A stretch of 23,960 nt of DNA, taken from the IMG/VR virus record IMGVR_UViG_3300021197_001094, positions 1-23,960 of that record. One strand, written 5' to 3'. Within the stretch, counting starts at the first letter, position 1; each line of letters begins with the position of its first letter. Shown here one piece after another: positions 13,750-23,960 of this stretch. The notes under the pieces are model-generated. The model was not told the origin of the DNA. It did no database searches and saw only the letters and a list, made by a program, of their open reading frames with translations. A program made the position numbers and the translations under genes. The DNA is from a virus.

Positions 13750-14193
13750 ATGGATATAGATAGATTAAGACAGCAACTTGAGATCGATGAAGGTTGTAAG
13801 CATGAAGTGTACTTAGATCATCTAGGGCTTCCTACGTTTGGAATTGGGCATCTGATTATCGACTCAGATCCAGAGGCAACGAAAGATGTTGGTGATCCTG
13901 TAACAGATGAGCGTGTCAAAGAATGTTTTGAAAAGGACGTAGAGTCAGTGCTTGTTGACTGCAAAAGATTGTATGATGATTTTGATGAGTTGCCTGACGA
14001 GGCCCAAGAAATAATTGCAAACATGGTCTTCAATATGGGGCTGAGCCGGATGCGTGGTTTTCGTGGCATGAAGGCTGGAATAGACGCAAGGGATTGGAAC
14101 AAGGCCGCTGATGAAATGGTTGACAGCCGGTGGTATCGTCAAGTCACAAACAGAGCAGAGCGTTTGGTACAGCGAATGCGTAGCCTTGCCTAG
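13750..14193 (+). CDS. Endolysin, T4-type lysozyme (GH24)
   Basis: A 147-residue endolysin that hydrolyses the MurNAc-GlcNAc bonds of peptidoglycan. The catalytic triad of T4 lysozyme (E11, D20, T26) is matched with identical spacing: E14 in IDEGCK, D23 in YLDHLG and T29 in PTFGIGH. The C-terminal part keeps the fold-defining ANMVFNMG and later RW/RAERL motifs. There is no signal peptide or signal-anchor, so export should depend on the holin just upstream. Length is slightly shorter than T4 gpe (164 aa). It is the last gene of the rightward late block; attP follows directly. Confidence 0.92.
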   Translation: MDIDRLRQQLEIDEGCKHEVYLDHLGLPTFGIGHLIIDSDPEATKDVGDPVTDERVKECFEKDVESVLVDCKRLYDDFDELPDEAQEIIANMVFNMGLSRMRGFRGMKAGIDARDWNKAADEMVDSRWYRQVTNRAERLVQRMRSLA

Positions 14194-14195
14194 CT

Positions 14196-14226
14196 TGGGT
14201 TGCAAATGGGTTGCAAATGGGTTGCA
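14196..14226 (+). repeat. Three tandem 11-bp arm-type repeats, left of attP core
   Basis: The unit TGGGTTGCAAA occurs at 14196-14206 and 14207-14217, and its first nine bases again at 14218-14226, starting 3 bases after the lysozyme stop. The same unit is found on the other side of the putative core, the arrangement of arm-type integrase binding sites in lambda-like attP. Binding is inferred. Confidence 0.65.
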
Positions 14227-14253
14227 GAACATCCCTTAACATCCCTTAACATG

Positions 14254-14271
14254 GTGTTACAATTGTCACAC
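14254..14271. promoter_or_regulatory. 18-bp near-perfect palindrome in the attP region
   Basis: GTGTTACAATTGTCACAC is palindromic except for one pair. It is preceded by two direct copies of the 10-mer ACATCCCTTA (14229-14248). It lies between the left arm repeats and the tRNA-like core, a place where excisionase or host factors bend DNA in other phages. No protein can be assigned. Confidence 0.4.
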
Positions 14272-14322
14272 GAAGTCCTTAAAAAACACGAATTGTTAAA
14301 GGATGTTCCGTCTAAATTTAGT

Positions 14323-14345
14323 TTCGAACCCATCCACCGGAGCCA
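14323..14345 (+). other. Putative attP core: tRNA 3' end (Asn-type)
   Basis: The bases read as the last 23 nt of a tRNA: T-loop TTCGAAC (14323-14329), T-stem strand CCATC, acceptor strand CACCGGA, discriminator G and CCA. The 5' half of the T-stem does not match (T precedes the loop where G53 is expected), so this is not a tRNA gene but the identity segment a phage carries to restore the host tRNA after integration. Discriminator G and an acceptor implying a 5' TCCGG fit tRNA-Asn best. The core is flanked by arm repeats and the integrase gene begins 120 bases downstream. Confidence 0.7.
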
Positions 14346-14390
14346 ATTAACTCATTGAAAAATAAAGATTATTTTTAGCAAAAGTGCATT

Positions 14391-14412
14391 TGGGTTGCAA
14401 ATGGGTTGCAAG
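14391..14412 (+). repeat. Two tandem 11-bp arm-type repeats, right of attP core
   Basis: TGGGTTGCAAA at 14391-14401 is followed by TGGGTTGCAAG at 14402-14412, in the same orientation as the three copies at 14196-14226. Together they bracket the tRNA-like core at 45-100 bp on each side, as expected for integrase arm sites. Confidence 0.65.
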
Positions 14413-14426
14413 CGGTGGATGGTAAC

Positions 14427-14443
14427 TTGACGTTTTACGTCAA
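14427..14443. promoter_or_regulatory. Repressor-type operator upstream of integrase
   Basis: TTGACGTTTTACGTCAA is a perfect 7-bp inverted repeat with a 3-bp spacer. It contains a consensus -35 hexamer (TTGACG) on the strand of the integrase gene, though no good -10 follows at 16-18 bp. It matches the operators overlapping the two early promoters at 18886-18902 and 19985-20001, so integrase is probably under the same repressor or Cro control. Confidence 0.65.
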
Positions 14444-14464
14444 TTTTTTGCTTGCATTTGGTGG

Positions 14465-15739
14465 ATGGCACACCCATATTATTCTTATCACAATAATAAT
14501 TGGATGGGAAAAATGGCTAAAAAATTACAAGTAGCGTATTGGAAATCAAAAAATAAAGTTGGTAAAGCTCCTTGGGCTGTTGATTGCAGACCAAGTGGCA
14601 AGTTGCAGTTCTTCAAAACCAAAGCGGAGGCGCAGTCAGTAATTGATTCTTTAAATCCTGTTGCAGATAATACTTGGTGGACTGTAGACGATCTTGCTGG
14701 CAATCCAGATGCTCCAAAACTTTATGATAACGGCGAGGCCATTGACTTTCTTTCTGAGCAAGTAGATCGCAACAAGCCGAACCGTGCTGAGATTGCAGGC
14801 AAGCGATTGCAGTTTATTACAGCCGCAGTCAAAACATTCTGTGAATGTCAGATCAATGGTCAGCGCATTGGCGGTCTTAAAGTTCATTCGATTACAGGCT
14901 ATCAGTTGCAGCAACACGTTGTCAGTCAAATGTCTGTTGGCGTTTCAAACAAAACTTTGCGTGATAAATGGAATGTGGTTGTTATGCTTTTTGCTTGGGC
15001 GAATGCAGGCGCAGGCATTATCAAAAGCAACCCAGCTTCAGAAGTACAGAACCTCAAAAAGCACGGACATAAAAATAAGAAACGTGCCGGTAAAATGGAT
15101 CGAGTGCAGCCTGATACAATTTCTAAGATTATTGCGGCGATGCCAAACCCACAATCTAATGCAAATCATTCGTTGTTGGATTGGGGCTTAATGGCAGAGT
15201 TTGCGGCTACCACTGGATTACGCCAGGGAGAGCAGCGGCCATTACGCTGGGCAGACCTAGACCTTGACGAAGGTTTTGTTTCAATCACCCATTCGATGGA
15301 AGATGATTTTTACGATACCGCTAACACTAAATCAGGCCGTCTTACTGGCGAATATAAAACCAGGGAAGTTGAGCTTTCAGATCCGCTTATAGCCAAGCTC
15401 AAGGAATGGTACATATATTGTGGCCGTCCATCTCAAGATACACTTGTCTGGTCATCACGTTCTGGTCACATTATAGCGTCATCTAGGTTTCGTGAAAAAG
15501 TGCGTGAAGTATGTAGTCGGTTAGAGATTGAGCTAGTGCATTGGCATGAGCTTAGACACTTCTACGCAGGCGATCAGCTACAGCGTGAAAGTGTCAAAGA
15601 AGTATCTTACCTACTAGGCCACTCATCAACGGCTGTAACTGAGCGTGTTTATGGTCATTGGGTTAAAGATGCTGCTGGCCGTAGGCGGCGCAGAGAGAGC
15701 GCAAACAATAGCACACTATATTCAGCAGGGGCTTCTTAG
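14465..15739 (+). CDS. int: Site-specific tyrosine recombinase (phage integrase)
   Basis: This enzyme catalyses integration and excision at attP. The C-terminal catalytic domain shows R253 in TTGLRQGEQRPLRW (box I), H361-x-x-R364 in HELRHFYA (box II), H386 in LLGHSS and the nucleophile Y396 in TERVYGHW. The N-terminal 60 residues (AYWKSKNKVGKAPW, KTKAEAQ) look like an arm-binding domain and residues about 95-200 like the SAM-like core-binding domain. Total length of 424 aa is typical. The start is uncertain: ATG 14513 (MAKKLQVAYW) has purine-rich sequence upstream and may be the real start, since a promoter with -35 at 14427 would leave almost no leader for ATG 14465. It adjoins attP and ends in an intrinsic terminator. 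Confidence 0.93.
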   Translation: MAHPYYSYHNNNWMGKMAKKLQVAYWKSKNKVGKAPWAVDCRPSGKLQFFKTKAEAQSVIDSLNPVADNTWWTVDDLAGNPDAPKLYDNGEAIDFLSEQVDRNKPNRAEIAGKRLQFITAAVKTFCECQINGQRIGGLKVHSITGYQLQQHVVSQMSVGVSNKTLRDKWNVVVMLFAWANAGAGIIKSNPASEVQNLKKHGHKNKKRAGKMDRVQPDTISKIIAAMPNPQSNANHSLLDWGLMAEFAATTGLRQGEQRPLRWADLDLDEGFVSITHSMEDDFYDTANTKSGRLTGEYKTREVELSDPLIAKLKEWYIYCGRPSQDTLVWSSRSGHIIASSRFREKVREVCSRLEIELVHWHELRHFYAGDQLQRESVKEVSYLLGHSSTAVTERVYGHWVKDAAGRRRRRESANNSTLYSAGAS

Positions 15740-15752
15740 CCCCTCTTTTTTT
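15727..15752 (+). terminator. Intrinsic terminator of the integrase gene
   Basis: AGGGGC (15727-15732) pairs with GCCCCT (15739-15744) around a 6-nt loop that contains most of the integrase stop codon (15737-15739), and is followed by C and seven T. The T run includes the stop of the convergent leftward gene (15751), so the two operons meet exactly here. On the other strand there is no T run, so it should act only rightward. Confidence 0.85.
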
Positions 15753-16272
15753 ATGCGTGAATGTTGGTTGTAAACCTGTGCCAAATTTGGTCAACACGAT
15801 CAAGATCACGCTGTGGAACAAACCAGCTCAAGCCTCTGCCTTGTTTGAATTCTTTTTGTTTTGCTTTTTGCTCAAAGAGTTCTTTTGATATTCCACCCAC
15901 AATTTCAACAACGTCTAGCTCTTCAGTTGCTAACACAAGAATAGCGTACTTAGACCGAAACCAGTTTTTGTTTTTAACAATTAAATTTGCATTGCAGTGC
16001 TTACTGATTTTGACATCAATACTCATTTTACCAAAATACATATCAATCCCATTATCTGGGCCTGCTGCATGAACATTAAATTCTAAGTTAAAACATTTGG
16101 CCACAGCCATTTCGCTTTTTAAAGCTAATGTATTTCGCTCCAAGGCAGTCATGCCAGATTCGGCAGCCTTATCTTTGCCGCCCATCTGTCCAAGAACCCA
16201 ACCTATCATAGTCCTCATATTTGCAGCTTGGTTAATATCTGATAGCTCTTGCTCACTCAGTCGTATCTTCAC
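15751..16272 (-). CDS. PD-(D/E)XK nuclease-like protein
   Basis: A 173-residue protein, last gene of the leftward operon. Its core resembles a restriction-endonuclease fold: E54 in LKSEMAVAK, D77 in DNGIDMYFG, and D86-V-K88 in MSIDVKIS, followed by beta strands (KYAILVLATEE, VVEIVGGIS). The E...D...DxK pattern suggests a metal-dependent nuclease, though no exact family is recognised. It uses a GTG start (16272) with GAGG upstream, overlapping the end of the preceding 25-codon ORF, which suggests coupling. Distance from the recombination genes and position between excisionase and integrase fit an accessory gene, for example exclusion or host takeover, but that is speculation. Confidence 0.6.
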   Translation of the reverse strand: MKIRLSEQELSDINQAANMRTMIGWVLGQMGGKDKAAESGMTALERNTLALKSEMAVAKCFNLEFNVHAAGPDNGIDMYFGKMSIDVKISKHCNANLIVKNKNWFRSKYAILVLATEELDVVEIVGGISKELFEQKAKQKEFKQGRGLSWFVPQRDLDRVDQIWHRFTTNIHA

Positions 16273-16330
16273 ATTGCCTCGCAGTTTTTAAGCATTCATA
16301 CGCCAGGTCAATCAGCTCCTGGCGTGTCAT
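16253..16330 (-). CDS. Very small ORF (25 aa) linking two leftward genes
   Basis: ATG at 16330 lies inside the end of the excisionase-like gene in another frame. The ORF encodes MTRQELIDLAYECLKTARQ followed by a short acidic tail, and its stop (16253) lies inside the start of the nuclease-like gene. The peptide is an amphipathic helix with natural-looking composition. It may be a true micro-protein or a leader that carries ribosomes from one gene to the next. Confidence 0.35.
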   Translation of the reverse strand: MTRQELIDLAYECLKTARQCEDTTE

Positions 16331-16574
16331 TGGCCGTGTGTAAAACCCTTGGTTCTTCAACCACACGCAAAGCTGGTGAGGCCGTGGATAGATTATTAAC
16401 TCCGTAGGATTGCAGCGTTGCTCTTGATATGAGGGCTGTTGAACCCATCCAGGTGCATGGGATTTCTTTAGTTTTGACAAGCCGCCTAAGAGCGTGTTCG
16501 CCGCTGCGTCCTGGCCTGTCTGGAAATAGAAACTGAGCCGCTTGCGGAATTGTAAAAAATATTTGTTCATTCAT
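16308..16574 (-). CDS. Excisionase-like small HTH protein
   Basis: An 88-residue protein beginning MNEQIFFTIPQAAQFLF, then HALRRLVKTKEIPCTWMGSTALISRATL. The order 'helix - RRLVKTKEIP - MGST-ALISRATL' matches the winged-helix fold of phage excisionases and AlpA/HTH_17 proteins, in which the basic turn contacts DNA and the final strand forms the wing. Such proteins bind next to attP and direct integrase towards excision. The start lies one base after the preceding stop. Expression from the early-left operon after repressor release fits an Xis. A second frame from ATG 16570 covers the same stretch; this frame is preferred for its HTH pattern and tight coupling. Confidence 0.55.
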   Translation of the reverse strand: MNEQIFFTIPQAAQFLFPDRPGRSGEHALRRLVKTKEIPCTWMGSTALISRATLQSYGVNNLSTASPALRVVEEPRVLHTANDTPGAD

Positions 16575-16575
16575 C

Positions 16576-16920
16576 CTAGAACTCTATCTCTTCCGGCGTG
16601 ACATTGATTTGGCTGGCTGGATCTTGATAGCCGCTCGATGCTTTGCTGAATGTACCAGCCTGCCTGTTTGGGTCTTCTGGGAACAGCATCATTGATCCAC
16701 GCTTTTCGTAGGAGTCCACGACCTTTTCTTGGAACTGAATTGATACTCGCATTCCATATTCAAGCAGTTTGTTTGCAATATACTCAGCCCTTTTTTTATC
16801 TTCATCACTCATGTTGGGGCCGTCAGCAGTCTGTATCCATGCGCTCGCTGAATAAGAATGCCCAGAATTAAGGCTGTGCATCAGGTTTACTTTGCTATTT
16901 TTTAACTGTGGTTTTGCCAT
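16576..16920 (-). CDS. Hypothetical protein of the recombination operon (114 aa)
   Basis: The start chosen is ATG 16920 (MAKPQLKNSK), just after the upstream stop, with GAGG in reach; an in-frame ATG at 16938 would overlap the upstream gene. The product is hydrophilic, with NSGHSYSASAWIQTADGPNMS near the N-terminus and helices in the middle (EDKKRAEYIANKLLEYG). It ends in an acidic tail closing in a hydrophobic residue (PEEIEF), loosely like the tip of single-stranded-DNA-binding proteins. Location two genes after the ERF annealing protein suggests a recombination accessory role, perhaps ssDNA binding, but no OB-fold motif was recognised. Confidence 0.55.
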   Translation of the reverse strand: MAKPQLKNSKVNLMHSLNSGHSYSASAWIQTADGPNMSDEDKKRAEYIANKLLEYGMRVSIQFQEKVVDSYEKRGSMMLFPEDPNRQAGTFSKASSGYQDPASQINVTPEEIEF

Positions 16921-16921
16921 T

Positions 16922-17215
16922 TTATTCGTCCTCTTCATTTAATTTATTGTTATGTTTTTGCAAATCTACCACTTCAGAAATGTTATCTCCGTAATATTTT
17001 TGATCTATTCTAAGTCGATCAGCCCGAAATTCATCGTGAATACGGTCACTGCTCTCCCTGTTTTTTTTCATTTGCTCTGCTATTTCAAACAATGCCACTG
17101 CTATTTTTTGAGTTGTATCAACAAGATTTGCTGCTTCCCAATTGCTGTCAGAAACATTGGGAGATATAAATGATCGCCTTATAGCTTCAGCTACAGTTTC
17201 TTTTCTTTCACTCAT
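16922..17215 (-). CDS. Hypothetical helical protein (97 aa) after the ERF gene
   Basis: The ATG at 17215 lies one base after the ERF stop, with AAGGAAAGTAAG upstream as ribosome binding site. The product is charged and mostly helical (KIAVALFEIAEQMKKNRESSDRIHDEF), with a basic patch (RADRLRIDQKYYG) and a strongly acidic C-terminus. It has no membrane segment and no recognised domain. Tight spacing on both sides places it in the exonuclease-ERF operon. Confidence 0.6.
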   Translation of the reverse strand: MSERKETVAEAIRRSFISPNVSDSNWEAANLVDTTQKIAVALFEIAEQMKKNRESSDRIHDEFRADRLRIDQKYYGDNISEVVDLQKHNNKLNEEDE

Positions 17216-17216
17216 C

Positions 17217-17897
17217 TTACTTTCCTTTCAAGTTTTCTTCTGCTGTTTTGTATTTATCGCCAAGCTCTTTAAATGCGTCTGGTTGATCTTCTTGTAACCT
17301 GCCCAGCATATTATTATTTTCACGCTTCCAGGCTGGTAATCGCCCAGGGAATGTAATCTCAGCAATCTCTGCTTTTGCCTGTTCAGCCCAGTTCAACAGC
17401 GTTTCTTTGGATGCTTGCTCGTACTTATTATCGCCAGGGAAGGGTGGGTCTTTACCTTCAACGTACACTGGTTTAGGTGCAGGCTTGGGCTGTTGCTTTG
17501 GTGCAACGTAACTACTTGATACAGCGTCATCGTCATCTGTTGCCAAGTTAAGTATCGCTTGAAGTGAGTACCGCCGAATGTAGCTCAGTGTAGAGCCAAT
17601 ATTTTGCAGCTTGTTTCCTTTTGTTAAGCTTTCCCAATTTAGATTTAACGGAAACTTAGAAACTATTTCTTCACCAGATAAATGCGTCACTGTCGTTATG
17701 AGCAACATATGATCATCATACGGTGCAAAAGTTTGGTGAACGGACAGCCCAGCCTCTGCCATTGGGCCTCGCACAGCGTTAAGAGTTGCTGCGAGATCAG
17801 CATACTTATAGTTGTAGCCTTGGCTGTTCTTTCCAATGTTACCGCCCATCGCAGCGTGGAATTTAACTAACGCCTTGTTCAGCTCTGGTGTACTCAT
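17217..17897 (-). CDS. erf: ERF-family single-strand annealing protein
   Basis: A 226-residue recombinase of the P22 Erf/ERF family, which anneals complementary single strands. Typical motifs are present: residues 28-43 (YNYKYADLAATLNAVR), 49-60 (AGLSVHQTFAPY), the beta strand and SGEE at 63-77, and the family core GSTLSYIRRYSLQAIL with acidic DDDD at 101-124. A Pro/Gln/Lys-rich linker follows, and the C-terminal 75 residues form a Glu-rich helical region. It overlaps the upstream exonuclease gene by four bases (ATGA), the usual pairing of exonuclease and annealing protein in a two-component phage recombination system. Confidence 0.9.
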   Translation of the reverse strand: MSTPELNKALVKFHAAMGGNIGKNSQGYNYKYADLAATLNAVRGPMAEAGLSVHQTFAPYDDHMLLITTVTHLSGEEIVSKFPLNLNWESLTKGNKLQNIGSTLSYIRRYSLQAILNLATDDDDAVSSSYVAPKQQPKPAPKPVYVEGKDPPFPGDNKYEQASKETLLNWAEQAKAEIAEITFPGRLPAWKRENNNMLGRLQEDQPDAFKELGDKYKTAEENLKGK

Positions 17898-18838
17898 TCA
17901 ATCCCCCATGTTTTCTTTGCCAAGTCTTTTATTTCTGGCACTTCATCACGCCAGGTAAAGTAATCAAAGTCTGGTGGATCAAGCAGCTCAAACAGATCTT
18001 CAACCGTTTCAGATCGACGCAACATTGTTTCAGTACGCTTGTGCATCTGGCTAATCTGCTCCACGCAGTCAGCTAAGAAGTCATCGCTTAATTCATCACT
18101 GTTATTAGGCGTAAATACCTGACAGTCTGTTGCTGTAGCGTAGACAAGAAAGGGCGGTCTATGGCCGTTTAAATGCCACCACCCAGCCGTTTGAAATACA
18201 TTGTTAATATCAAACATCCCAGACAGATTTTTGGGCGTTGAGATAGATCGAAAGCCAGACTTAGTTGTTGGAGCATAGCTTGCCCATTTTGTTTTAAGAT
18301 CACCACGCCTGCCATAATCAGGTTTTGTAAAGTGTGGGATCTCGTTGCGAGGCATCAGCCCAATATAATCCACTTCACCAATAATCTGGTTGTCCTGGCT
18401 CATGGCTTCTTTAAGACCTTCAACAGCCATTTTGATGGTGTCTGGAATATCTGTTTTATATCTATCAATGGATGCAATATCCGAATCAGTTAGATCCGCA
18501 CCGCCGTAGGTTCTTGGTGTCCAGTTTTCAGCATCTTTCAAAACATGGTCAAACGCCTCAGAAGGGTCAACAGGGTCAGCTCCATCAACGCCTAGTATCA
18601 GGTCAGCTCCAAGTTGCACAAGCTGTCCAGCCCTCATTTTGGGATTCTGTGAACGATTCCAACTATAAGCCCTAGCTTGTTCCCTAGAGGCTTCTGTATT
18701 TTCTTTGTAAAGCTTGTCTATGAGAGGGCGTAGAATTACCTTGCTAAAAAGCTTGTCAGATCGGCTGCCGCTTTTAGGATTGCTATGGTGAAAGTAGCTA
18801 AACTTTTCTGCCCATTCGGGTACAGGATTTAGTGACAA
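17894..18838 (-). CDS. PD-(D/E)XK phage exonuclease (YqaJ/Cas4-like)
   Basis: A 314-residue nuclease expected to resect double-strand ends so that ERF can anneal the exposed strand. Motifs: N-terminal HHSNPKSGSRSDK (17-29), E155 in IIGEVDYIG, D180-L-K182 in RRGDLKTKW, and Q216-T-A-G-W in a QhxxY-like helix, matching the RecB/Cas4-type PD-(D/E)XK order. The start is TTG at 18838: it has a strong GGGGAG six bases upstream and no better start is in frame. That ribosome binding site is in the stem of a leader hairpin (18842-18875). It is the first gene of the early-left operon, just behind a repressor-controlled promoter. Confidence 0.82.
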   Translation of the reverse strand: MSLNPVPEWAEKFSYFHHSNPKSGSRSDKLFSKVILRPLIDKLYKENTEASREQARAYSWNRSQNPKMRAGQLVQLGADLILGVDGADPVDPSEAFDHVLKDAENWTPRTYGGADLTDSDIASIDRYKTDIPDTIKMAVEGLKEAMSQDNQIIGEVDYIGLMPRNEIPHFTKPDYGRRGDLKTKWASYAPTTKSGFRSISTPKNLSGMFDINNVFQTAGWWHLNGHRPPFLVYATATDCQVFTPNNSDELSDDFLADCVEQISQMHKRTETMLRRSETVEDLFELLDPPDFDYFTWRDEVPEIKDLAKKTWGIE

Positions 18839-18841
18839 TAG

Positions 18842-18875
18842 AATCTCCCCATATTTTTTTGTATATGGAGAGATT
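18842..18875 (-). promoter_or_regulatory. Leader hairpin masking the exonuclease ribosome binding site
   Basis: Bases 18842-18854 pair with 18863-18875 (12 of 13 pairs) around an 8-nt loop. On the minus-strand RNA the 3' arm contains GGGGAG, the ribosome binding site of the TTG-started exonuclease. The predicted transcript start (about 18867) falls in the 5' arm, so a transcript from this promoter keeps only the inner 7 bp or so of the stem, while read-through from the repressor gene keeps all of it. Confidence 0.5.
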
Positions 18876-18902
18876 GTTAACTCAAATGACGTGTTACGTC
18901 AA
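18874..18902 (-). promoter_or_regulatory. Early-left promoter with overlapping operator
   Basis: On the minus strand, TTGACG (18902-18897) is followed after 17 bp by TAACAA (18879-18874). The 17-mer at 18886-18902 reads ATGACGTGTTACGTCAA on the plus strand, an operator palindrome with one mismatch that covers the -35. It begins directly after the repressor stop codon (18904-18906) and drives the exonuclease-ERF operon. Repressor bound here would block the -35. Confidence 0.72.
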
Positions 18903-18903
18903 C

Positions 18904-19569
18904 TCAATCAATTATATTGATGCCAAGGAGTTTAGGTTCGGTATATATTGCGAGGATTGGAGTAGCCCATACTACATCTTGTTCACGCTTCATAGAACCG
19001 TCGCCACGCATCCGTGTATTTTCGATGTCGTAACACACTTTGTTGGTTTCGCTTGTTCGTGACGATTTCCAAATTCTACCTAACTTTATGTTCCCATCGT
19101 GCTTAATAATCGACAACCGATTGTTTGTTTCTGGCTCGACGATTCGATTCGCCATAGCGGATCTGCCAAACACATAAAGCGTATGGTCTGTCCAGAACTC
19201 TTGCTCCTTATCATTGCCACCCAGCACAGCTGCTGAGTTTGGTGGAAAGTTAAAAGGAGCTGTTGCAGTTTTTGTCTTTTCTTCAAAGGATGTAAACTGT
19301 TCAACTATAAAGTTTGGCATAATTCGGCCAAGAACATCAATGCCCTTTGGTTCAAAGATAATCCATTCGGGCGGTACATCCAGGGCATCTGCATACCGTT
19401 CTACAAAGTCGTGGCTAATCGCAATCTTACCGTTCATATGGCGGCTTACTGTTTCCTTGGTGGTTCCAAGAATGTCAGCAAGTTCTTTGGCCATAATCCC
19501 TTTGCTTTTGGCTATTTCTTTGAGTTTATTTGTTTGCATATTAAAACTATTATTGTTGAAATTATTCAT
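18904..19569 (-). CDS. Lysogeny repressor (HTH_3, CI-like)
   Basis: A 221-residue DNA-binding protein. Residues 15-66 form a Cro/CI-type helix-turn-helix, with MAKELADILGTTKETVSRHM as helices 2 and 3. After PPEWIIFEPKG comes a C-terminal domain of about 130 residues that is mostly beta (HTLYVFGR, NRLSIIKHDGNIKLGRIW, VVWATPILAIYTEP), reminiscent of LexA/S24 C-terminal domains. I cannot find the GDSM-type catalytic serine and later lysine, so self-cleavage is doubtful. The start ATG 19569 has GGGAG six bases upstream, inside a hairpin. Position between the two operator-bearing promoters, divergent from a Cro-like gene, supports the repressor role. Confidence 0.8.
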   Translation of the reverse strand: MNNFNNNSFNMQTNKLKEIAKSKGIMAKELADILGTTKETVSRHMNGKIAISHDFVERYADALDVPPEWIIFEPKGIDVLGRIMPNFIVEQFTSFEEKTKTATAPFNFPPNSAAVLGGNDKEQEFWTDHTLYVFGRSAMANRIVEPETNNRLSIIKHDGNIKLGRIWKSSRTSETNKVCYDIENTRMRGDGSMKREQDVVWATPILAIYTEPKLLGINIID

Positions 19570-19575
19570 CTGATA

Positions 19576-19592
19576 CTCCCTTTTATAGGGAG
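19576..19592 (-). promoter_or_regulatory. Leader hairpin masking the repressor ribosome binding site
   Basis: On the minus strand CTCCCT (19592-19587) pairs with AGGGAG (19581-19576) around the loop ATAAA. The 3' arm contains GGGAG, the ribosome binding site six bases before the repressor ATG. This is the same arrangement as at the exonuclease start. Confidence 0.45.
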
Positions 19593-19653
19593 AGTCAAAA
19601 TGGCTTTGCTTATGTATTCCATGAGAGCAAAACCACGCTTATCTTTTGCTTAC

Positions 19654-19863
19654 TTAGCGTGTGGGGGGGGGGGGTGATTGCTGGCTGGCAGACCAGTTAC
19701 TAGCAGTGTTGCCGTGGCTGCTTGCACTAATAATTCCAAAGCCGCCATGATTGTGTGGAATTGTTTTTGTTTTGGACGAAACATTGTCTTGAATCCAACA
19801 GATGCTCCTATTGCTTTTATTCCCAAGTTCAAAATAGGGATTTATTGTAAGTTTTTGTGTCAT
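19654..19863 (-). CDS. Small ORF upstream of the repressor, ending in a C12/G12 tract
   Basis: The ATG at 19863 has a strong ribosome binding site, GGGAGG, six bases upstream, and the frame gives 69 residues beginning MTQKLTINPYFELGNKSN and ending in four prolines, Thr and Arg. The prolines are coded by a run of 12 C (12 G on the plus strand). A second minus-strand frame is also open here and contains a hydrophobic segment (MAALELLVQAATATLLVTG), so a frameshifted membrane protein is possible. It precedes the repressor by 84 bases on the same strand and may share its transcript. No family recognised. Confidence 0.4.
   Translation of the reverse strand: MTQKLTINPYFELGNKSNRSICWIQDNVSSKTKTIPHNHGGFGIISASSHGNTASNWSASQQSPPPPTR
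19663..19674. repeat. G12 homopolymer tract
   Basis: Twelve consecutive G on the plus strand, near the 3' end of the small ORF above and about 95 bases before the repressor ATG. With 11 or 13 bases the ORF would end in other residues (stop two codons later, or an extension of about a dozen codons towards the repressor). It could be a slippage-prone switch or a sequencing/assembly artefact. Confidence 0.6.
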
Positions 19864-19942
19864 TATAACCTCCCAGTAAGTTACACTATACATCAATTAA
19901 ACTACCTATAATCGTTACTTATTTACTTTCAGTACAGTAAAA

Positions 19943-19959
19943 GTGACAGATACCGTCAC
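19943..19959. promoter_or_regulatory. Second, weaker operator-like site
   Basis: GTGACAGATACCGTCAC has the same 17-bp size as the strong operators and keeps TGAC at the same place in both half-sites. It lies 25 bp before the operator at 19985-20001 and upstream of the leftward small ORF and repressor, where a repressor-maintenance promoter would be expected. Confidence 0.45.
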
Positions 19960-19984
19960 ACCTGTAAAGATAGTAAATACACAG

Positions 19985-20012
19985 TTGACGTATTATGTCA
20001 ATTAATTATACT
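19985..20012 (+). promoter_or_regulatory. Early-right promoter with overlapping operator
   Basis: TTGACG (19985-19990) and TATACT (20007-20012) are separated by 16 bp, a near-consensus sigma70 promoter. The operator TTGACGTATTATGTCAA (19985-20001) covers the -35 and part of the spacer. The expected transcript start is about 20019, so the leader before the Cro-like ATG (20050) is about 30 bases, with three copies of AGTTGAT at 20023-20049. It drives the rightward Cro-nuclease-methyltransferase block. Confidence 0.8.
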
Positions 20013-20049
20013 GAGCGTCAAAAGTTGATCTAAGTTGATGCGAGTTGAT

Positions 20050-20253
20050 ATGAAACTAAACGAGTGGCGGTTATCTAAGAAGCTAAGCTACAAAGATTTG
20101 GCTTACAAGGTTGGTGCGAAACACGCCACGATAGCACGGCGATGGTGCTTGGCTGAAGATCACCCACAGCGGCTTATCCCCAACACAGACTACATGAAAT
20201 CAATCATGCTTGCAACGCAAGGAGCGGTGAACGCCAATGACTTCTATAACTGA
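20050..20253 (+). CDS. Cro-like HTH regulator (67 aa)
   Basis: From ATG 20050 the product is 67 residues (in-frame ATG 20035 is an alternative; neither has a strong ribosome binding site). Residues 5-35 form a helix-turn-helix, WRLSKKLSYKDLAYKVGAKHATIARRW, with the usual Leu/Ala/Gly pattern. The rest is a short helical tail. It is the first gene after the early-right promoter and divergent from the repressor, the classic cro position; it would bind the same TTGACGT half-sites and favour lytic growth. Some replication or excision activators have similar size, so Cro is assigned mainly from location. Confidence 0.7.
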   Translation: MKLNEWRLSKKLSYKDLAYKVGAKHATIARRWCLAEDHPQRLIPNTDYMKSIMLATQGAVNANDFYN

Positions 20254-20638
20254 GGATCAGCTGCAAAAGCTCGTTGCACAGTATTTAACCTTGGCTCTAC
20301 CAGATGGCGCCGTATTCCATCACAGTCCTAATGAAGGTACACGCCATGTAAGTTTCAAAATGAAGCTCAAGAGCTTTGGCACACGATCAGGATGGCCAGA
20401 CCTGGAAATCTTCTGCCCAGATACAAAACCTATCTTCATAGAATTAAAACGGCCTGATGCAAAGGGCAGGGCAAAGGGTGTGCTGAGCCACAATCAGCGA
20501 TTGCTGAAAGAGCAGTTTGAAAACTTAGGTGTTCACTGGGCGATGTGCAAATCCCTTGATGACGTGGTGAACTTTCTTAGCCCATTAGTGAGGCTCAAGG
20601 GCGGTGATCGTTACGTTGATCTGGTGAGAGGTAAGTGA
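20237..20638 (+). CDS. VRR-NUC domain nuclease
   Basis: A 133-residue stand-alone VRR-NUC protein of the PD-(D/E)XK superfamily. Motifs: D55 in RSGWPDLEIF, E69-L-K71 in IFIELKRPDAKGR, Q87 in LSHNQRLL, and the closing GVHWAMCKSLDDVVNFL helix. Stand-alone phage VRR-NUC proteins are thought to act on branched or nicked DNA during replication or packaging. The start at 20237 overlaps the Cro-like gene by 17 bases, and its stop overlaps the methyltransferase ATG (TGATG), so all three are probably one transcript. Confidence 0.85.
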   Translation: MTSITEDQLQKLVAQYLTLALPDGAVFHHSPNEGTRHVSFKMKLKSFGTRSGWPDLEIFCPDTKPIFIELKRPDAKGRAKGVLSHNQRLLKEQFENLGVHWAMCKSLDDVVNFLSPLVRLKGGDRYVDLVRGK

Positions 20639-21744
20639 TGGCTCATGTGGATCTCTGCTCTGGCATAGGCGGCTTTGGATATGGCTTTGAAACCGTTGGA
20701 TTGAGCAAGCCAGTATTGTTCTGTGAGATAGATCCTTGGTGTAGAAAAGTCCTAAAGAAGCATTGGCCTGATGTGCCGATAGCAGAAGATGTAAAGGAGC
20801 TGGCAGATGACCCAGATCGATATGTTCCCAGAAACCTTAATTGGTCAAACACCATCCTCACAGCCGGATATCCCTGTCAGCCGTTCAGCGTTGCAGGCAG
20901 GCAAAGAGGCACAGAAGACCCTCGCCACATCTGGCCGTGGCTGCTTAAACTTGTTGCACTCAAAAGACCCAAGTTTGCCGTATTTGAAAATGTTACTGGT
21001 CACATTGCCTTGGGCCTCGATAAGGTTCTCAATGATTTGGAAGGTGAAGACTACGCCGTCACGACGCTTATTATTCCAGCTAGTTCAGTCGGTGCGCCCC
21101 ACAAGCGAGAGCGGCTCTGGATTATTGCACACTCCAACAGCAACAGCCAATCAGATGTCACCAAGCATGAGCAAGAGCGGTTGGTGGCCGACACCCAGAG
21201 CAGCAAGCGGTGGCCCAGGCAAGAACCCAAACAACAAAAGGGGGATGCACCAAGGCAATCCATTAGCAACGGCAGTGGCAATGTGGCCGACACCGACAGT
21301 ACAAGACAGCAACAAAGCTACAAAAAAATGGAGGACAGATCATCAAAACAATCTGACAGCAGCGATATTCAATCCAGACAAAATGTGGCCGACACCAGCA
21401 GCGAGGGATTGGAAGGGCGGCAACAGTTACGACAGCACACAAAAGAAAATGGACGAAGGCAAGAAGGCGCACATGGGTCAGTTGCCCAATGCTGTGATGA
21501 TGGCGCAGGGCAAACAGCCGACAGCACAGCTCAACCCAGAATGGGTGACCTGGCTGATGGGCTACCCAAGGGGCTGGACAGATTTGGAAGACACGACGGA
21601 TTTGAATTAGAGCCGTCTGATATTCCAAGAATTGCCAGTGGAATCAAAGACAGAGCGAACCGGCTCAAGGGGCTTGGCAACGCCATTGTGCCACAGATTG
21701 CAATGCAGATTGGCTTAGCCATCAAGGAGAGCCAATGGAAGTAA
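20638..21744 (+). CDS. DNA (cytosine-5-)-methyltransferase
   Basis: A 368-residue C5 methyltransferase that would transfer methyl from S-adenosylmethionine to cytosine, probably shielding phage DNA from restriction. Motifs: I, DLCSGIGGFGYGFE (5-18); IV, GYPCQPFS with catalytic C80; VI, ENV (117-119); VIII, GAPHKRERLWIIA (152-164); X, RLKGLGNAIVPQIA near the end. Between VIII and X, residues about 168-320 are unusual: hydrophilic, rich in Gln/Ser/Asp, with three VADT repeats (DNA repeat GTGGCCGACACC) and no recognisable target-recognition domain. Most of this region is also covered by a second long ORF in another frame. Start ATG 20638 rather than GTG 20635, because it overlaps the upstream stop. 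Confidence 0.92.
   Translation: MAHVDLCSGIGGFGYGFETVGLSKPVLFCEIDPWCRKVLKKHWPDVPIAEDVKELADDPDRYVPRNLNWSNTILTAGYPCQPFSVAGRQRGTEDPRHIWPWLLKLVALKRPKFAVFENVTGHIALGLDKVLNDLEGEDYAVTTLIIPASSVGAPHKRERLWIIAHSNSNSQSDVTKHEQERLVADTQSSKRWPRQEPKQQKGDAPRQSISNGSGNVADTDSTRQQQSYKKMEDRSSKQSDSSDIQSRQNVADTSSEGLEGRQQLRQHTKENGRRQEGAHGSVAQCCDDGAGQTADSTAQPRMGDLADGLPKGLDRFGRHDGFELEPSDIPRIASGIKDRANRLKGLGNAIVPQIAMQIGLAIKESQWK
20807..21610 (+). CDS. Overlapping ORF nested in the methyltransferase gene (267 aa)
   Basis: Entirely inside the methyltransferase gene, in its +1 frame. ATG 20807 has an ideal ribosome binding site, AAGGAG (20794-20799), seven bases upstream. The product begins MTQIDMFPETLIGQTPSSQP; QIDMF resembles the beta-clamp-binding pentapeptide (QADMF in DnaE). 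It carries three WPTP boxes (WWPTPRAASGG, MWPTPTVQDSNK, MWPTPAARDWKGG) and ends with LNPEWVTWLMGYPRGWTDLE, like motif IX of C5 methyltransferases. I recall phage proteins of this pattern annotated beside cytosine methyltransferases, not verified. An overlapping gene or frameshift partner supplying the missing recognition region is plausible; an artefact of the conserved methyltransferase sequence is the alternative. Confidence 0.55.
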   Translation: MTQIDMFPETLIGQTPSSQPDIPVSRSALQAGKEAQKTLATSGRGCLNLLHSKDPSLPYLKMLLVTLPWASIRFSMIWKVKTTPSRRLLFQLVQSVRPTSESGSGLLHTPTATANQMSPSMSKSGWWPTPRAASGGPGKNPNNKRGMHQGNPLATAVAMWPTPTVQDSNKATKKWRTDHQNNLTAAIFNPDKMWPTPAARDWKGGNSYDSTQKKMDEGKKAHMGQLPNAVMMAQGKQPTAQLNPEWVTWLMGYPRGWTDLEDTTDLN

Positions 21745-21914
21745 CCTACTACGCCGTAATGATCTTGATGCAGTTCCAAAGCCCAGAGGCCTGTGAGGCT
21801 TATGCACAAAACCTTAAACACCATCAAAACTGCGTACCGATTGTACGCTACGAAGACCCAAGCAACCTAGAGCCGTTGAAGCGGCCAAAGATAATAGAAG
21901 GGATGAAGATATGA
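21735..21914 (+). CDS. Small hypothetical protein (59 aa)
   Basis: ATG 21735 overlaps the end of the methyltransferase gene, with AAGGAG eight bases upstream. The product (MEVTYYAVMILMQFQSPEAC, then NCVPIVRYEDPS) has a short hydrophobic N-terminus, two cysteines and a Pro-rich charged tail. The stop overlaps the next ATG (ATATGAC). Composition and coupling on both sides support a real gene; function unknown. The N-terminal stretch is too short for a clear membrane segment. Confidence 0.6.
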   Translation: MEVTYYAVMILMQFQSPEACEAYAQNLKHHQNCVPIVRYEDPSNLEPLKRPKIIEGMKI

Positions 21915-22192
21915 CAAAACAAAGTATAGCGGAACAATTTGGATTGAAGGCAATCAAACGAAGCAACGTAAGTCTAAGCCGTGCTGCTGAAGGTGAAAAG
22001 GCTAGGGAAGCAAAGTACAAGGCAAATGCAAGCCCAGAGAGCGTGGCAAAGCACTACATTCAGTATCGTGTCAACAGTGGCTGGACATATCCACAGATTG
22101 CAAGGGCATCGAAGTTTGAGTTGCCGTTTGGTAAGACCAAGTGGTCAAAGCAGCTGCTTGTTGATGCCTGCGTTGAGTGGCTCACCAAATGA
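21911..22192 (+). CDS. Hypothetical protein (93 aa)
   Basis: The ATG overlaps the previous stop by four bases and the stop overlaps the next ATG (ATGA). The product begins MTKQSIAEQFGLKAIKRSN, has a basic helical middle (SRAAEGEKAREAKYKANASP) and a C-terminal region with WTYPQIARASKF and KTKWSKQLLVDACVEWL. The last part looks like two short helices with a turn, so a DNA-binding role is possible but no HTH family fits clearly. No membrane segment. Confidence 0.6.
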   Translation: MTKQSIAEQFGLKAIKRSNVSLSRAAEGEKAREAKYKANASPESVAKHYIQYRVNSGWTYPQIARASKFELPFGKTKWSKQLLVDACVEWLTK

Positions 22193-22290
22193 ACACAAAC
22201 AGCAGATTCTTTGATCTTTGGGTGGATAAACGCCCCTGGTGGAACAAAATGTGGACTCAAATACGAAAGGGGATTGACAGATGCTTTTAG
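22189..22290 (+). CDS. Tiny Trp-rich ORF (33 aa)
   Basis: ATG 22189 overlaps the upstream stop (ATGA). The peptide (MNTNSRFFDLWVDKRPWWNK, then MWTQIRKGIDRCF) is basic and contains four Trp in 33 residues. Its end overlaps the next possible start at 22281. Translational coupling is the main evidence; it has no recognised family. Confidence 0.4.
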   Translation: MNTNSRFFDLWVDKRPWWNKMWTQIRKGIDRCF

Positions 22291-22481
22291 GTTACGCTAT
22301 TCGTCAGAAGTCAGCTCCAGTAATTAAGCTCCACAAGATAAGCTCCACAAAGATTCGCTCCATAAGTGTTGCTTCACTAATAAATAAAATATTAAAAAGA
22401 TTAAGCAAAACGACAGCAGATAAGCACCTCAAGATAAGCTTATCTAGTGTAGCTTATCTAGTGGAGCTTAACTATGAGTAG
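22281..22481 (+). CDS. Doubtful ORF over an iteron-like region (66 aa)
   Basis: ATG 22281 has AGGGG eight bases upstream and overlaps the preceding ORF by ten bases. The product is basic and Ser/Ile/Lys-rich. Most of it is coded by short DNA repeats whose spacing is 14 or 15 bases, so the repeat is not kept in one reading frame. This suggests that the DNA sequence rather than the protein is under selection. It may still be translated as a leader for the next gene, whose ATG lies inside its end. Confidence 0.3.
   Translation: MLLGYAIRQKSAPVIKLHKISSTKIRSISVASLINKILKRLSKTTADKHLKISLSSVAYLVELNYE
22311..22470. repeat. Iteron-like repeats flanking AT-rich DNA (possible origin)
   Basis: Four consecutive 14-15-bp units share AGCTCCA at the same position (22311-22325, 22326-22339, 22340-22354, 22355-22369); a fifth is degenerate. 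An AT-rich stretch follows (about 22377-22410), then a 14-bp perfect palindrome AGATAAGCTTATCT (22432-22445) and two direct copies of AGCTTATCTAGTG plus T or G (22437-22450, 22451-22464), followed by AGCTTA. Iterons next to an easily melted block are typical of theta replication origins. No initiator gene is recognised in the window, so a regulatory role is equally possible. Confidence 0.45.
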
Positions 22482-22488
22482 CTCCACT
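22460..22488 (+). promoter_or_regulatory. Hairpin holding the start of the DUF6362-like gene
   Basis: AGTGGAGCT (22460-22468) pairs perfectly with AGCTCCACT (22480-22488). The 11-nt loop contains the ATG at 22474 and the 5' arm contains its ribosome binding site GGAG (22463-22466). In RNA this 9-bp stem would hide the ribosome binding site and loop out the start codon. Confidence 0.5.
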
Positions 22489-22878
22489 TATGATATTAAA
22501 TATCTCGATGATCTTTTCAGTGAAGCTGCGGAAACAGAGCGAAGGCTTCCAGCTGCAATTCGCAAGCAGAAGATGGTCACTTGGCCAGAGTATCTGAGCG
22601 ATTGGAAAAGCTACGGATGGGATGATTACACTCCTAGACTCTCACCAGCAACAACCATCCAGGTAGATCGATTTGAGTTGGCTTTAGACATGGGCATAAA
22701 ACATATGGACGCAGAAGATCGTAAGCTTGTCTGGCTGGTGTGCCACAGCGGTGCATTCAACGAAAGAGGGCCTCGATGGACGAAACTCGCCAGAGCTATG
22801 GGATCAGAACGTAGGATTGTAAAGCGGCGATATGACCAGGCAATCATAAGGCTTTACTACAAGCTTTTGCATTCCTAG
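22474..22878 (+). CDS. DUF6362-like HTH protein upstream of terminase
   Basis: A 134-residue protein with ETERRLPAAIRKQKMVTWPEY near the N-terminus, then RFELALDMGIKHMDAEDRKLVWLVC and a C-terminal sigma-region-4-like helix-turn-helix (WTKLARAMGSERRIVKRRYDQAIIRLYYKL). The order 'RLP...TWP...ALDMG...DRKLVW...HTH' matches DUF6362 proteins as I remember them, commonly encoded before the small terminase gene. The role is unproven; a late-gene regulator or packaging-related DNA-binding protein is plausible. GGAG lies seven bases before ATG 22474, inside a hairpin. About 250 bases of structured non-coding DNA follow. Confidence 0.7.
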   Translation: MSSSTYDIKYLDDLFSEAAETERRLPAAIRKQKMVTWPEYLSDWKSYGWDDYTPRLSPATTIQVDRFELALDMGIKHMDAEDRKLVWLVCHSGAFNERGPRWTKLARAMGSERRIVKRRYDQAIIRLYYKLLHS

Positions 22879-23131
22879 AAAAAAATACAGCCTCAAATAA
22901 AAAAACTATTGACTGAATGTCTGTAATGACTCAGATTCTGGATATAATCGGCAGATGTTGTCTGCCAAGCTCCCCAAACATATTAGGTTTCTTCCCAGAA
23001 TGCTGCCTCGACAGCATCAACTTGGCTAGGCTAGGCTGAGTATCAATAACACGACAGATGATGCCTCCCAGTACAGTCTAGCCCAGCTATTTTTAGGTAT
23101 AACCATGTTTCACAGAATAAAGGATTGGCTC
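22879..23131 (+). promoter_or_regulatory. Structured intergenic region before the terminase block
   Basis: No convincing gene except a possible 5' extension of the next one (ATG 23105). It holds a perfect -10, TATAAT (22943-22948), without a good -35, followed at once by the hairpin GGCAGA/TCTGCC (22950-22966), a second hairpin ATGCTG/CAGCAT (23000-23017), and tandem GGCTA repeats (23024-23036) that can pair with CTAGCC (near 23090). This could be a late promoter with a structured leader, a small RNA, or a packaging site, since pac or cos often lies near the small terminase gene. Confidence 0.4.
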
Positions 23132-23275
23132 ATGTCACTCTACAGAAATATTAACAAGAAAAAGAAAGCTGGCACAAGTAAGCCGAAGTCGAAGTCAACG
23201 ATAAGCCCCAAAGCTTACAAGGATATGAAAGCTGGGTTTCCAAACAGCAAGAAGAATAAGGCAAAGAAGAAGTAA
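23132..23275 (+). CDS. Small Lys-rich basic protein (47 aa)
   Basis: The start ATG 23132 has AAGGA eight bases upstream and gives MSLYRNINKKKKAGTSKPKS and a C-terminus of mostly lysine. I recall small proteins beginning MSLYxNI that are common in phages near the packaging genes. ATG 23105 (56 aa) is an in-frame alternative with a weaker site. The stop shares one base with the terminase ATG (TAATGG). The strongly positive charge suggests nucleic-acid binding; the function is unknown. Confidence 0.6.
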   Translation: MSLYRNINKKKKAGTSKPKSKSTISPKAYKDMKAGFPNSKKNKAKKK

Positions 23276-23679
23276 TGGTGAAACGCAACGTAACGCAGGC
23301 TCAGTTTAAGAGCATCTGCGAGCAGCTCATTCATGGCAAAAGCTTGGAAACAATCTGCAAGGCTGACAGTATGCCAAGCAGCAGAACCATTCTGCGATAT
23401 GTGCAAGACGATGAGGATGCTTACAAGCAATACAGAGCTGCGAGGGCGATCCAAGCTGAAGTTCTAAGGGATTCAATAATTGAGTTAGTTGAGCGAGAGC
23501 TGCCAACAGATCCTAAGCTTGCAATGGCAGAGGTACAGCGACGTAGATTAGAGGCTGACCACAAGGATAAGTATATACGGCAGCTCGCTCCACTTGGCAT
23601 TAGGGATCGATCAGAGGATAAGCAAGCATCAGGTAGCATCACGTTGTCATGGGAAGGTGCAGAGATAGTTAGTGGGTAG
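23275..23679 (+). CDS. terS: Terminase small subunit
   Basis: A 134-residue protein with the features of Sf6-like small terminases. An N-terminal helix-turn-helix (FKSICEQLIHGKSLETICKADSMPSSRTILRYV) is followed by AYKQYRAARAIQAEVLRDSIIELVE, a central oligomerisation helix (KLAMAEVQRRRLEADHKDKYI) and a short C-terminal tail. It would recognise the packaging site and regulate the large terminase. GTG at 23278 also follows its ATG directly. The large terminase gene is not seen in the remaining 281 bases, so it should lie beyond the window. Confidence 0.8.
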   Translation: MVKRNVTQAQFKSICEQLIHGKSLETICKADSMPSSRTILRYVQDDEDAYKQYRAARAIQAEVLRDSIIELVERELPTDPKLAMAEVQRRRLEADHKDKYIRQLAPLGIRDRSEDKQASGSITLSWEGAEIVSG

Positions 23680-23960
23680 CAAGTGATAACACAGATAAGT
23701 CAGATAAGTCCTCATGCCATTCATAGGTAGTAGGGATTTTACTGTATAACAAACGCTCTGTGTCGGTGATCTCGCACACGAAGCAGCACCACCAAGCTTT
23801 GTTTTTTGTTTTTGTTTGCCCAGGTTTGCAACCCATTTGCAACCGCAGCTAAAGTATAGCCTTGCTGTATTGGGTTTGGTGGTAGGGAACGCAACTACTA
23901 AGCTGCTTTTTTGGCAATCGCCGATGCCCACCCTCCAATATTTTTCGCCGCCTTCTTTTA
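23680..23960. other. Non-coding stretch after terS
   Basis: I see no convincing gene on either strand. It contains a tandem 9-mer CAGATAAGT (23692-23700, 23701-23709) and an inverted pair of arm-type repeats (23825-23846). A short minus-strand frame at 23898-23957 (KKAAKNIGGWASAIAKKAA) looks protein-like but has a stop directly upstream at the window edge and no start. Confidence 0.5.
23825..23846 (-). repeat. Distal copy of the attP arm-type repeats
   Basis: On the minus strand, a near-copy of TGGGTTGCAAA (23846-23836, 9 of 11 matching) is followed by an exact copy (23835-23825). They are in opposite orientation to, and 9.4 kb from, the copies at attP. Confidence 0.5.

Follow-up and report, generated by a model that had tools for sequence, protein, structure and literature searches.

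The window analysed here, a viral record 23,960 bases long, carries an ordinary phage attachment site (attP) and, in the gap between the packaging genes terS and terL, a further, unusual set of integrase-type sites that is well supported. We consider this overall reading likely, the role of the second set being inferred. Across related phages, the repeats in the attP arms, the distal pair of repeats in the terS-terL gap and two residues of the integrase co-vary, including in single switches between near-identical siblings. An earlier note on the window had described the attP alone with five arm copies. This account was incomplete, as it missed two more copies on the minus strand at 23825-23846, and the reading of the region as simply an attP held only in part because the arm motif is also present at this second place.

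The attP core, TTCGAACCCATCCACCGGAGCCA, spans 23 nt at positions 14323-14345 (plus strand) and corresponds to the T-loop, the 3' strand of the T-stem, the 3' strand of the acceptor, the discriminator G and the CCA of tRNA-Asn(GTT). The P arm (14196-14228, plus strand) consists of three tandem 11-bp arm-type repeats, two of them exact (14196-14206 and 14207-14217) and the third with 1 mismatch (14218-14228), while the P' arm (14391-14412, plus strand) consists of two, one exact (14391-14401) and one with 1 mismatch (14402-14412). The earlier note had placed the 23-nt core with three and two arm repeats within 14194-14464; this held, a check of its coordinates confirming the positions and showing a tandem spacing of 11 bp within each arm for all five copies. 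In total, 22 matches to the arm repeat with at most 2 mismatches were found in the window against 12.8 expected, a number reached in 0 of 100 shuffles, and the excess over chance is due to the clusters. Upstream, a phage lysozyme gene (13750-14193, plus strand; PF00959, 2.2e-11) stops 2 nt short of the P arm. Among viral_contigs, the core 23-mer was found in one other record, L001, which covers 4.7 kb of a sister phage and preserves the core along with the five arm repeats; DNA identity is 83% in the attP region, and the integrase is 87% identical to that of the window. The criteria for a lambda-type attP, a core identical to the 3' end of a host tRNA and arm repeats on both sides, are met. 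The adjacent integrase with conserved catalytic residues adds to the likeness with known lambda-type sites, from which the window differs by its extra arm pair 9.4 kb away in the terS-terL gap. Positions 14196-14412 are thus likely to be the attP of a temperate marine phage of podovirus type that uses the 3' end of tRNA-Asn as its insertion site; recombination between attP and attB is inferred and no experiment supports it. The presence of arms on both sides had been taken by the earlier note as the sign of an unintegrated genome, which fits with the phage genes found on both flanks, although tandem prophages are not excluded.

Two further sequence elements were observed close to the attP. A palindrome, TTGACGTTTTACGTCAA, followed by T's, is located at 14427-14443 just upstream of the integrase gene, and could be an operator or a terminator. 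In relatives, a comparable palindrome (TTGACG...CGTCAA) is found ahead of int, close to a promoter-like sequence. A promoter-like TTAACA-16-TACAAT sequence lies within the P arm at 14236-14263. Chance alone would give about one match of this kind in the region, but if the promoter is real, integration would separate it from the integrase gene.

The integrase gene (14513-15739, plus strand) encodes a tyrosine integrase of 408 amino acids (PF00589, 2.6e-18). At its longest the open reading frame starts at 14465; the ATG at 14513, which follows the ribosome-binding-like sequence GGATGGGA, was preferred as the start. Conserved residues R237, H345, R348, H370 and Y380 were identified in alignment A2. 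In the AlphaFold model (mean pLDDT 75, blocks of the N-terminal domain 62-81), the N-terminus folds as a sheet with strands at residues 7-9, 21-24 and 31-34 followed by a helix at 37-46. A three-stranded sheet with a helix is the usual shape of arm-binding domains. The protein therefore meets the criterion for a lambda-type integrase, namely the catalytic R, H-x-x-R, H and Y together with an N-terminal sheet domain, the latter with only moderate confidence. Residues 18 and 31, which are discussed below, are placed by the same model, again with moderate confidence, just before the second strand and at the start of the third, respectively.

The earlier note had read the core as a tRNA 3' end, inferred a host tRNA starting with TCCGG, probably tRNA-Asn, and proposed the attP as a route to the host, to be refuted if no bacterial tRNA gene ended in the 23-mer. 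The search was run on genome_contigs with the core plus two T-stem bases as the query, and it returned 2 stretches, both of them the 3' end of a tRNA-Asn(GTT) starting with TCCGG, in two marine Rhodobacteraceae/Paracoccaceae metagenome-assembled genomes (MAGs; L003 and L004). These claims therefore held and the refutation was not met. Of 394 genomes sampled across the family, 2 contain the 23-mer, and the 47-nt tRNA stretch ending in it is present in both genomes (2/2) of the one genus in genome_contigs. The host of the phage is thus likely to belong to a narrow Rhodobacteraceae genus. The earlier note had also suggested a search for prophages flanked by the core; no intact one was found, and the only trace of integration of this kind was a scar. 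In L004 (MAG NAT185), the tRNA passes directly into a sequence resembling the P' arm, with 54 of 66 nt beyond the core identical to the window and 56 of 66 identical to the sister phage. An equally good score was reached in 0 of 2000 shuffles, the BLAST alignment of 89 nt, core included, had an E value of 4.8e-24, and both P' arm repeats are decayed yet still recognisable. Since a decayed P' arm follows the tRNA and no integrase is present in the remaining 1.4 kb of the contig, we read the flank in this genome (G002) as the scar of an earlier integration, an inference from sequence alone. The L003 flank showed no similarity to the P' arm (1039 of 2000 shuffles were as good), and no relative of the integrase was found in either genome (G001 or G002) by a search that lacked a positive control. 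Separately, a 31-nt stretch of the host MAG G001 (L102, G001:C70:341-371; TGGGTTGCAAATGGGTTACAAAACACCCCT) matches the P arm of the window at 90%, on a contig without the tRNA, and is perhaps another integration remnant.

The distal pair of arm-type repeats is located on the minus strand at 23825-23846, on the opposite strand to the attP arms and 9.4 kb from them. Read 5' to 3' on that strand, the unit at 23836-23846 comes first (2 mismatches over 11 nt, 8/9 over the core 9-mer) and is followed by an exact unit at 23825-23835, with a spacing of 11 bp. The pair lies after terS (terminase small subunit; 23275-23679, plus strand; PHROG 1482, 1.9e-20), in a layout homologous to that of the relatives L019 and L020, from which terL is judged to begin past the end of the window. 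No tandem as good was found in 200 Markov-shuffled windows. An adjoining third, degenerate 11-bp unit, CCTGGGCAAAC (23814-23824, minus strand), is the same in L019 though the other two units differ. In L019 and L020, whose TerS proteins are 96% and 94% identical to that of the window, the same spot is occupied by a different tandem with an 11-bp period, which led to the hypothesis that the gap sites follow each phage's own integrase.

We kept 80 loci out of 239 encoding relatives of TerS, of which 73 were assessable. A tandem at 8 or 9 out of 9 was present in the expected window in 56 of these 73 loci, as opposed to 0 of 146 control windows; only 8-9/9 counts were used, since 6 of the 7/9 tandems represented a different repeat. 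The pair is found about 150-165 nt before the start of terL with a spacing of exactly 11 bp, the exception being G401, where a small open reading frame was apparently inserted. Its position is fixed relative to terL and variable relative to attP, with core-to-terL distances of 7.6-11.3 kb. In about 190 kb of sequence from 15 phages, tandems of a phage's own motif at 15/18 or better were found at attP and in the gap only, and none elsewhere. Taken together, the control windows, the Markov shuffles and the confinement of own-motif tandems to attP and the gap led us to reject chance as the explanation of the terS-terL pair.

The gap holds further conserved elements, read by eye: a GC-rich palindrome near terS, G-rich runs and a TATA-like stretch before terL. 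These would suit a packaging site or a promoter, and a role of the gap as the packaging start site is unproven. Contig ends showed no clear pile-up in the gap and so gave no good support for a cos or pac site; judged by eye, 4 of the contigs bearing terS stop less than about 60 nt past the gene, and the starts of terL contigs look evenly spread. No sigma-70-like promoter was found in the gap of L019. As a separate observation, two assemblies look complete and circular: that of G419, whose contig ends abut in the terS-terL gap when set against G415, and that of G409, in which a terminal repeat of 127 nt is present.

To compare the gap with attP, 31 of the longer TerS-bearing records among the 80 loci were searched, and an integrase was found in 19. 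The motif of the gap pair equals the phage's own attP arm motif in 18 of 18 phages with both sites readable, as it does in the window, and the distal pair hence meets the criterion for an arm-type site, a sequence matching the phage's own attP arms. The attP end of the remaining phage, G415, is missing, and the gap of G419 was read across the contig ends. The motif itself varies between phages, near-identical siblings included. In a permutation test of 13 non-redundant phages, 218 of 234 positions matched, whereas none of 200,000 shufflings reached 218, the maximum being 202. This test omitted the near-duplicates G422 and G401, did not include G425, G416, G421, G419 and G415 (the last without a readable attP), and used a G399 region joined from two pieces.

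The motif can be related to two residues of the integrase (window numbering). Among 18 phages, residue 18 goes with motif bases 1-3, with K corresponding to GGG (8/8), W to GCA (4/4) and H to GTG (3/3), and the R class being mixed (CGG, GGG and TGT). Residue 31 goes with bases 5-7, with Q corresponding to CAC (10/10) and R to GCC (6/6), and L with TGC and K with GGC in one phage each. For each residue, 0 of 100,000 shuffles matched the association. The shuffles ignore relatedness and the phage counts are not phylogenetically independent. Two pairs of siblings illustrate the switch. Between G408 and G412, the 130-nt gap window differs mainly by GC to CA in both arms, with few differences outside, and the attP arms change likewise; the HTH part of the repressor is unchanged except for F2L and N10H near its N-terminus, and the N-terminal domain of the integrase differs. 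Between G409 and G411, whose TerS proteins are 100% and repressors 95% identical, both sites switch from GCATCACAA to GGGTCACAA, alongside a change from KGWA to QNKK in the integrase.

A second, test set was collected via TerL. An integrase was found in 5 of the 15 records examined; G418, which was among these, had already been used, and all 4 new phages (G427, G428, G430 and G437) agreed. G430 carries GGGCGCCTA at both sites, a motif that is new relative to the attP sites of the first set. G427 combines W and R, a new combination of residues, and GCATGCC is found in its gap as well as in its attP arms, in line with the code (GCA and GCC); this is an agreement and not a blind prediction, as the gap was known before residue 31. 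Overall, the pair is present in 22 of 22 viral records with an integrase (7/9 identity in L093 and 8-9/9 in the others). No integrase was found in 20 records, of which 17 were assessable; 10 of them have the pair, and it is absent from the other 7, among them the 36,046-bp G429, most of these records being fragments.

The same arrangement is found in a cultured phage. The Pelagibacter phage HTVC028P (MW273921), placed in the proposed family Ubiqueviridae (PMC10504331), encodes an integrase. Its 36,388-bp genome contains six copies of the octamer TAGTGAAT, four of them near attP and two forming a tandem on the opposite strand within the terS-terL gap. This gap tandem is the best arm-motif tandem in the genome. 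As the automatic terL start was wrong, the gap pair was found by the motif count and the search for arm-motif tandems. HTVC028P is like the window in having an integrase and repeats in the attP region that recur as a tandem in the gap, and unlike it in that its core resembles the 5' half of tRNA-Asn, its repeat spacing is 10 bp and its motif is different. No comparable pair was detected near terL in six cultured relatives without an annotated integrase (HTVC010P, HTVC035P, HTVC100P, HTVC106P, Venkman and Greip), with the caveats that the terL start of HTVC100P was about 110 nt off and that Greip has a single AT-rich 8/9 tandem, located far from where a pair would be expected. HTVC011P showed no clear arm tandem beside its int gene, and Ochrobactrum phage OH and MEP301 have no annotated integrase. 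With regard to membership of the HTVC010P-type phages (proposed Ubiqueviridae), the window itself stops before terL; the TerL of the close relative G396 matches that of HTVC010P at 64% and that of HTVC028P at 58%. Prophages with a distant TerL were found in 11 of 240 Alphaproteobacteria genomes, and a sequence-pattern search of prophage regions from four of those genomes found no integrase.

Joint variation of arm repeats and integrase N-termini has precedents, but we found no integrase sites at terminase genes in the open-licence PMC literature searched. In Cluster K mycobacteriophages (CrimD, Anaya and Adephagia), 11-bp arm repeats vary among related phages and residues of the N-terminal domain were proposed as the cause (PMC3203893). 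The window shares the 11-bp arms and the variation tied to candidate N-domain residues, whereas only attP sites are described in the bearing sections of that report. A genome search of CrimD found no third tandem of the motif at 16/18 or better, which indicates that the distal pair is not general to such integrases. Cluster J mycobacteriophages have arm-like sites outside the attP pairs, for which a regulatory role of the integrase was suggested (PMC3706429), yet these overlap the start codon of the integrase gene and not terminase genes. In Oenococcus oeni prophages of the IntF/IntB-F type, the integrase N-terminus and the arm repeats change together (PMC8074189), and a distal site, unlike in the window, goes unmentioned in the bearing section. 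Finally, Int of Tn916, which unlike the window is a conjugative element and not a phage, was reported to act at oriT (Rocco and Churchward 2006, cited in PMC6540685 and PMC9371924), a case of a tyrosine integrase acting where DNA transfer begins; this result has been questioned (PMC9371924).

Other genes and occurrences of the motif were also noted. A CI-like repressor with an HTH (PF01381) is encoded at 18904-19569 on the minus strand, and a C-5 cytosine DNA methylase gene (20635-21744; PF00145, 3.6e-38) is located downstream of a VRR-NUC gene. In a comparison of window positions 15739-23960 with L019 (from G396), much of the early region shows 73-87% DNA identity. No relative of the repressor was found in G396 and its integrase is only 40% identical to that of the window, a sign of module exchange. 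The unrelated viral contigs L014, L017 and L018 carry GGTTGCAAATGGGTTGCA, in L014 and L018 directly after the apparent end of an integrase gene, and a motif of this type may possibly serve distant integrases. The 18-mer arm motif was rejected as a family marker, as its 8 viral_contigs stretches lie mostly in unrelated contexts. A search against Rfam gave no match.

We think it likely that the N-terminal domain of the integrase recognises the distal pair as well as the attP arms, binding being inferred in the absence of binding data. What such binding would do is far less certain. In the mechanism we favor, the N-terminal domain would bind the tandem pair at 23825-23846, and the bound integrase would hold down either the expression of terL or the action of terminase on the packaging region during integration or in the integrated state. 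Packaging would thereby be coupled to excision, waiting until the genome had been excised. We regard an integrase that restrains terL or terminase from the gap as the most likely mechanism, but the function is inferred, there are no expression or packaging data, and even this proposal falls a little short of being probable. A bolder reading would extend it to a broad clade of abundant marine temperate phages, in which the integrase has two jobs, dedicated and selected gap sites directly gate packaging or terL by integration state, and both sites and the protein co-evolve via the two-residue code; this too we hold only tentatively, with doubt outweighing confidence to a slight degree.

Among the alternatives, one assigns the distal pair to recombination, the integrase bound there bridging to the attP core sites or sensing the closed circle. 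Integrases of the lambda kind bind arm and core sites simultaneously, which supports this option, as does the fact that the pair always accompanies an integrase (22/22) within 7.6-11.3 kb of the core, taken as core to terL. On the other hand, the attP already has full P and P' arms, and the position of the pair is fixed from terL while its distance to attP varies, and we consider a recombination role unlikely. Alternatively, the integrase at the gap could act positively, as a specificity factor steering terminase to the place of cutting, akin to the proposal for Tn916 Int at oriT, where a recombinase is likewise put where transfer processing starts (PMC6540685, PMC9371924). This is also unlikely, as the Tn916 result was questioned (PMC9371924), there is no evidence that the gap is the cutting site, and the integrase is not expected to be necessary for lytic packaging.

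According to a third alternative, both places are read by another phage protein (the repressor, TerS or a recombination directionality factor), and the co-variation of the integrase residues merely reflects modules that travel together. In its favor, repressor regions also differ in some phages, for example between the window and G396. The CI-like repressor, which was the main alternative, is not supported by the sibling comparison, as the motif switches with the repressor HTH essentially unchanged in G408/G412 and the HTH does not track the motif. TerS is rejected as the reader by the switch between G409 and G411 with identical TerS. It is integrase residues 18 and 31 that follow the motif, and another reader appears very unlikely, within the limit that the sibling evidence concerns the repressor and TerS and that no directionality factor was identified. 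Lastly, the distal pair could be without function, either left over from an older attP or duplicated by chance. In favor of this, the adjoining third unit does not co-vary, but we consider it very unlikely given the fixed spacing and place (56/73 as opposed to 0/146 controls) and the repeated matched switching of both units, which argue for selection on the distal pair.

In summary, the tRNA-Asn match links an uncultured phage to one small marine Rhodobacteraceae genus, and the residue code makes arm specificity readable from the integrase sequence, so that a metagenomic contig carrying only terL can be assigned to the integrase type of its phage. If the restraint of packaging by the integrase is true, it would constitute a direct physical link from the recombinase to packaging in the lysis-lysogeny decision, a link that to our knowledge has not been described in phage models, and which is testable in the cultured pair of HTVC028P and Pelagibacter HTCC1062.
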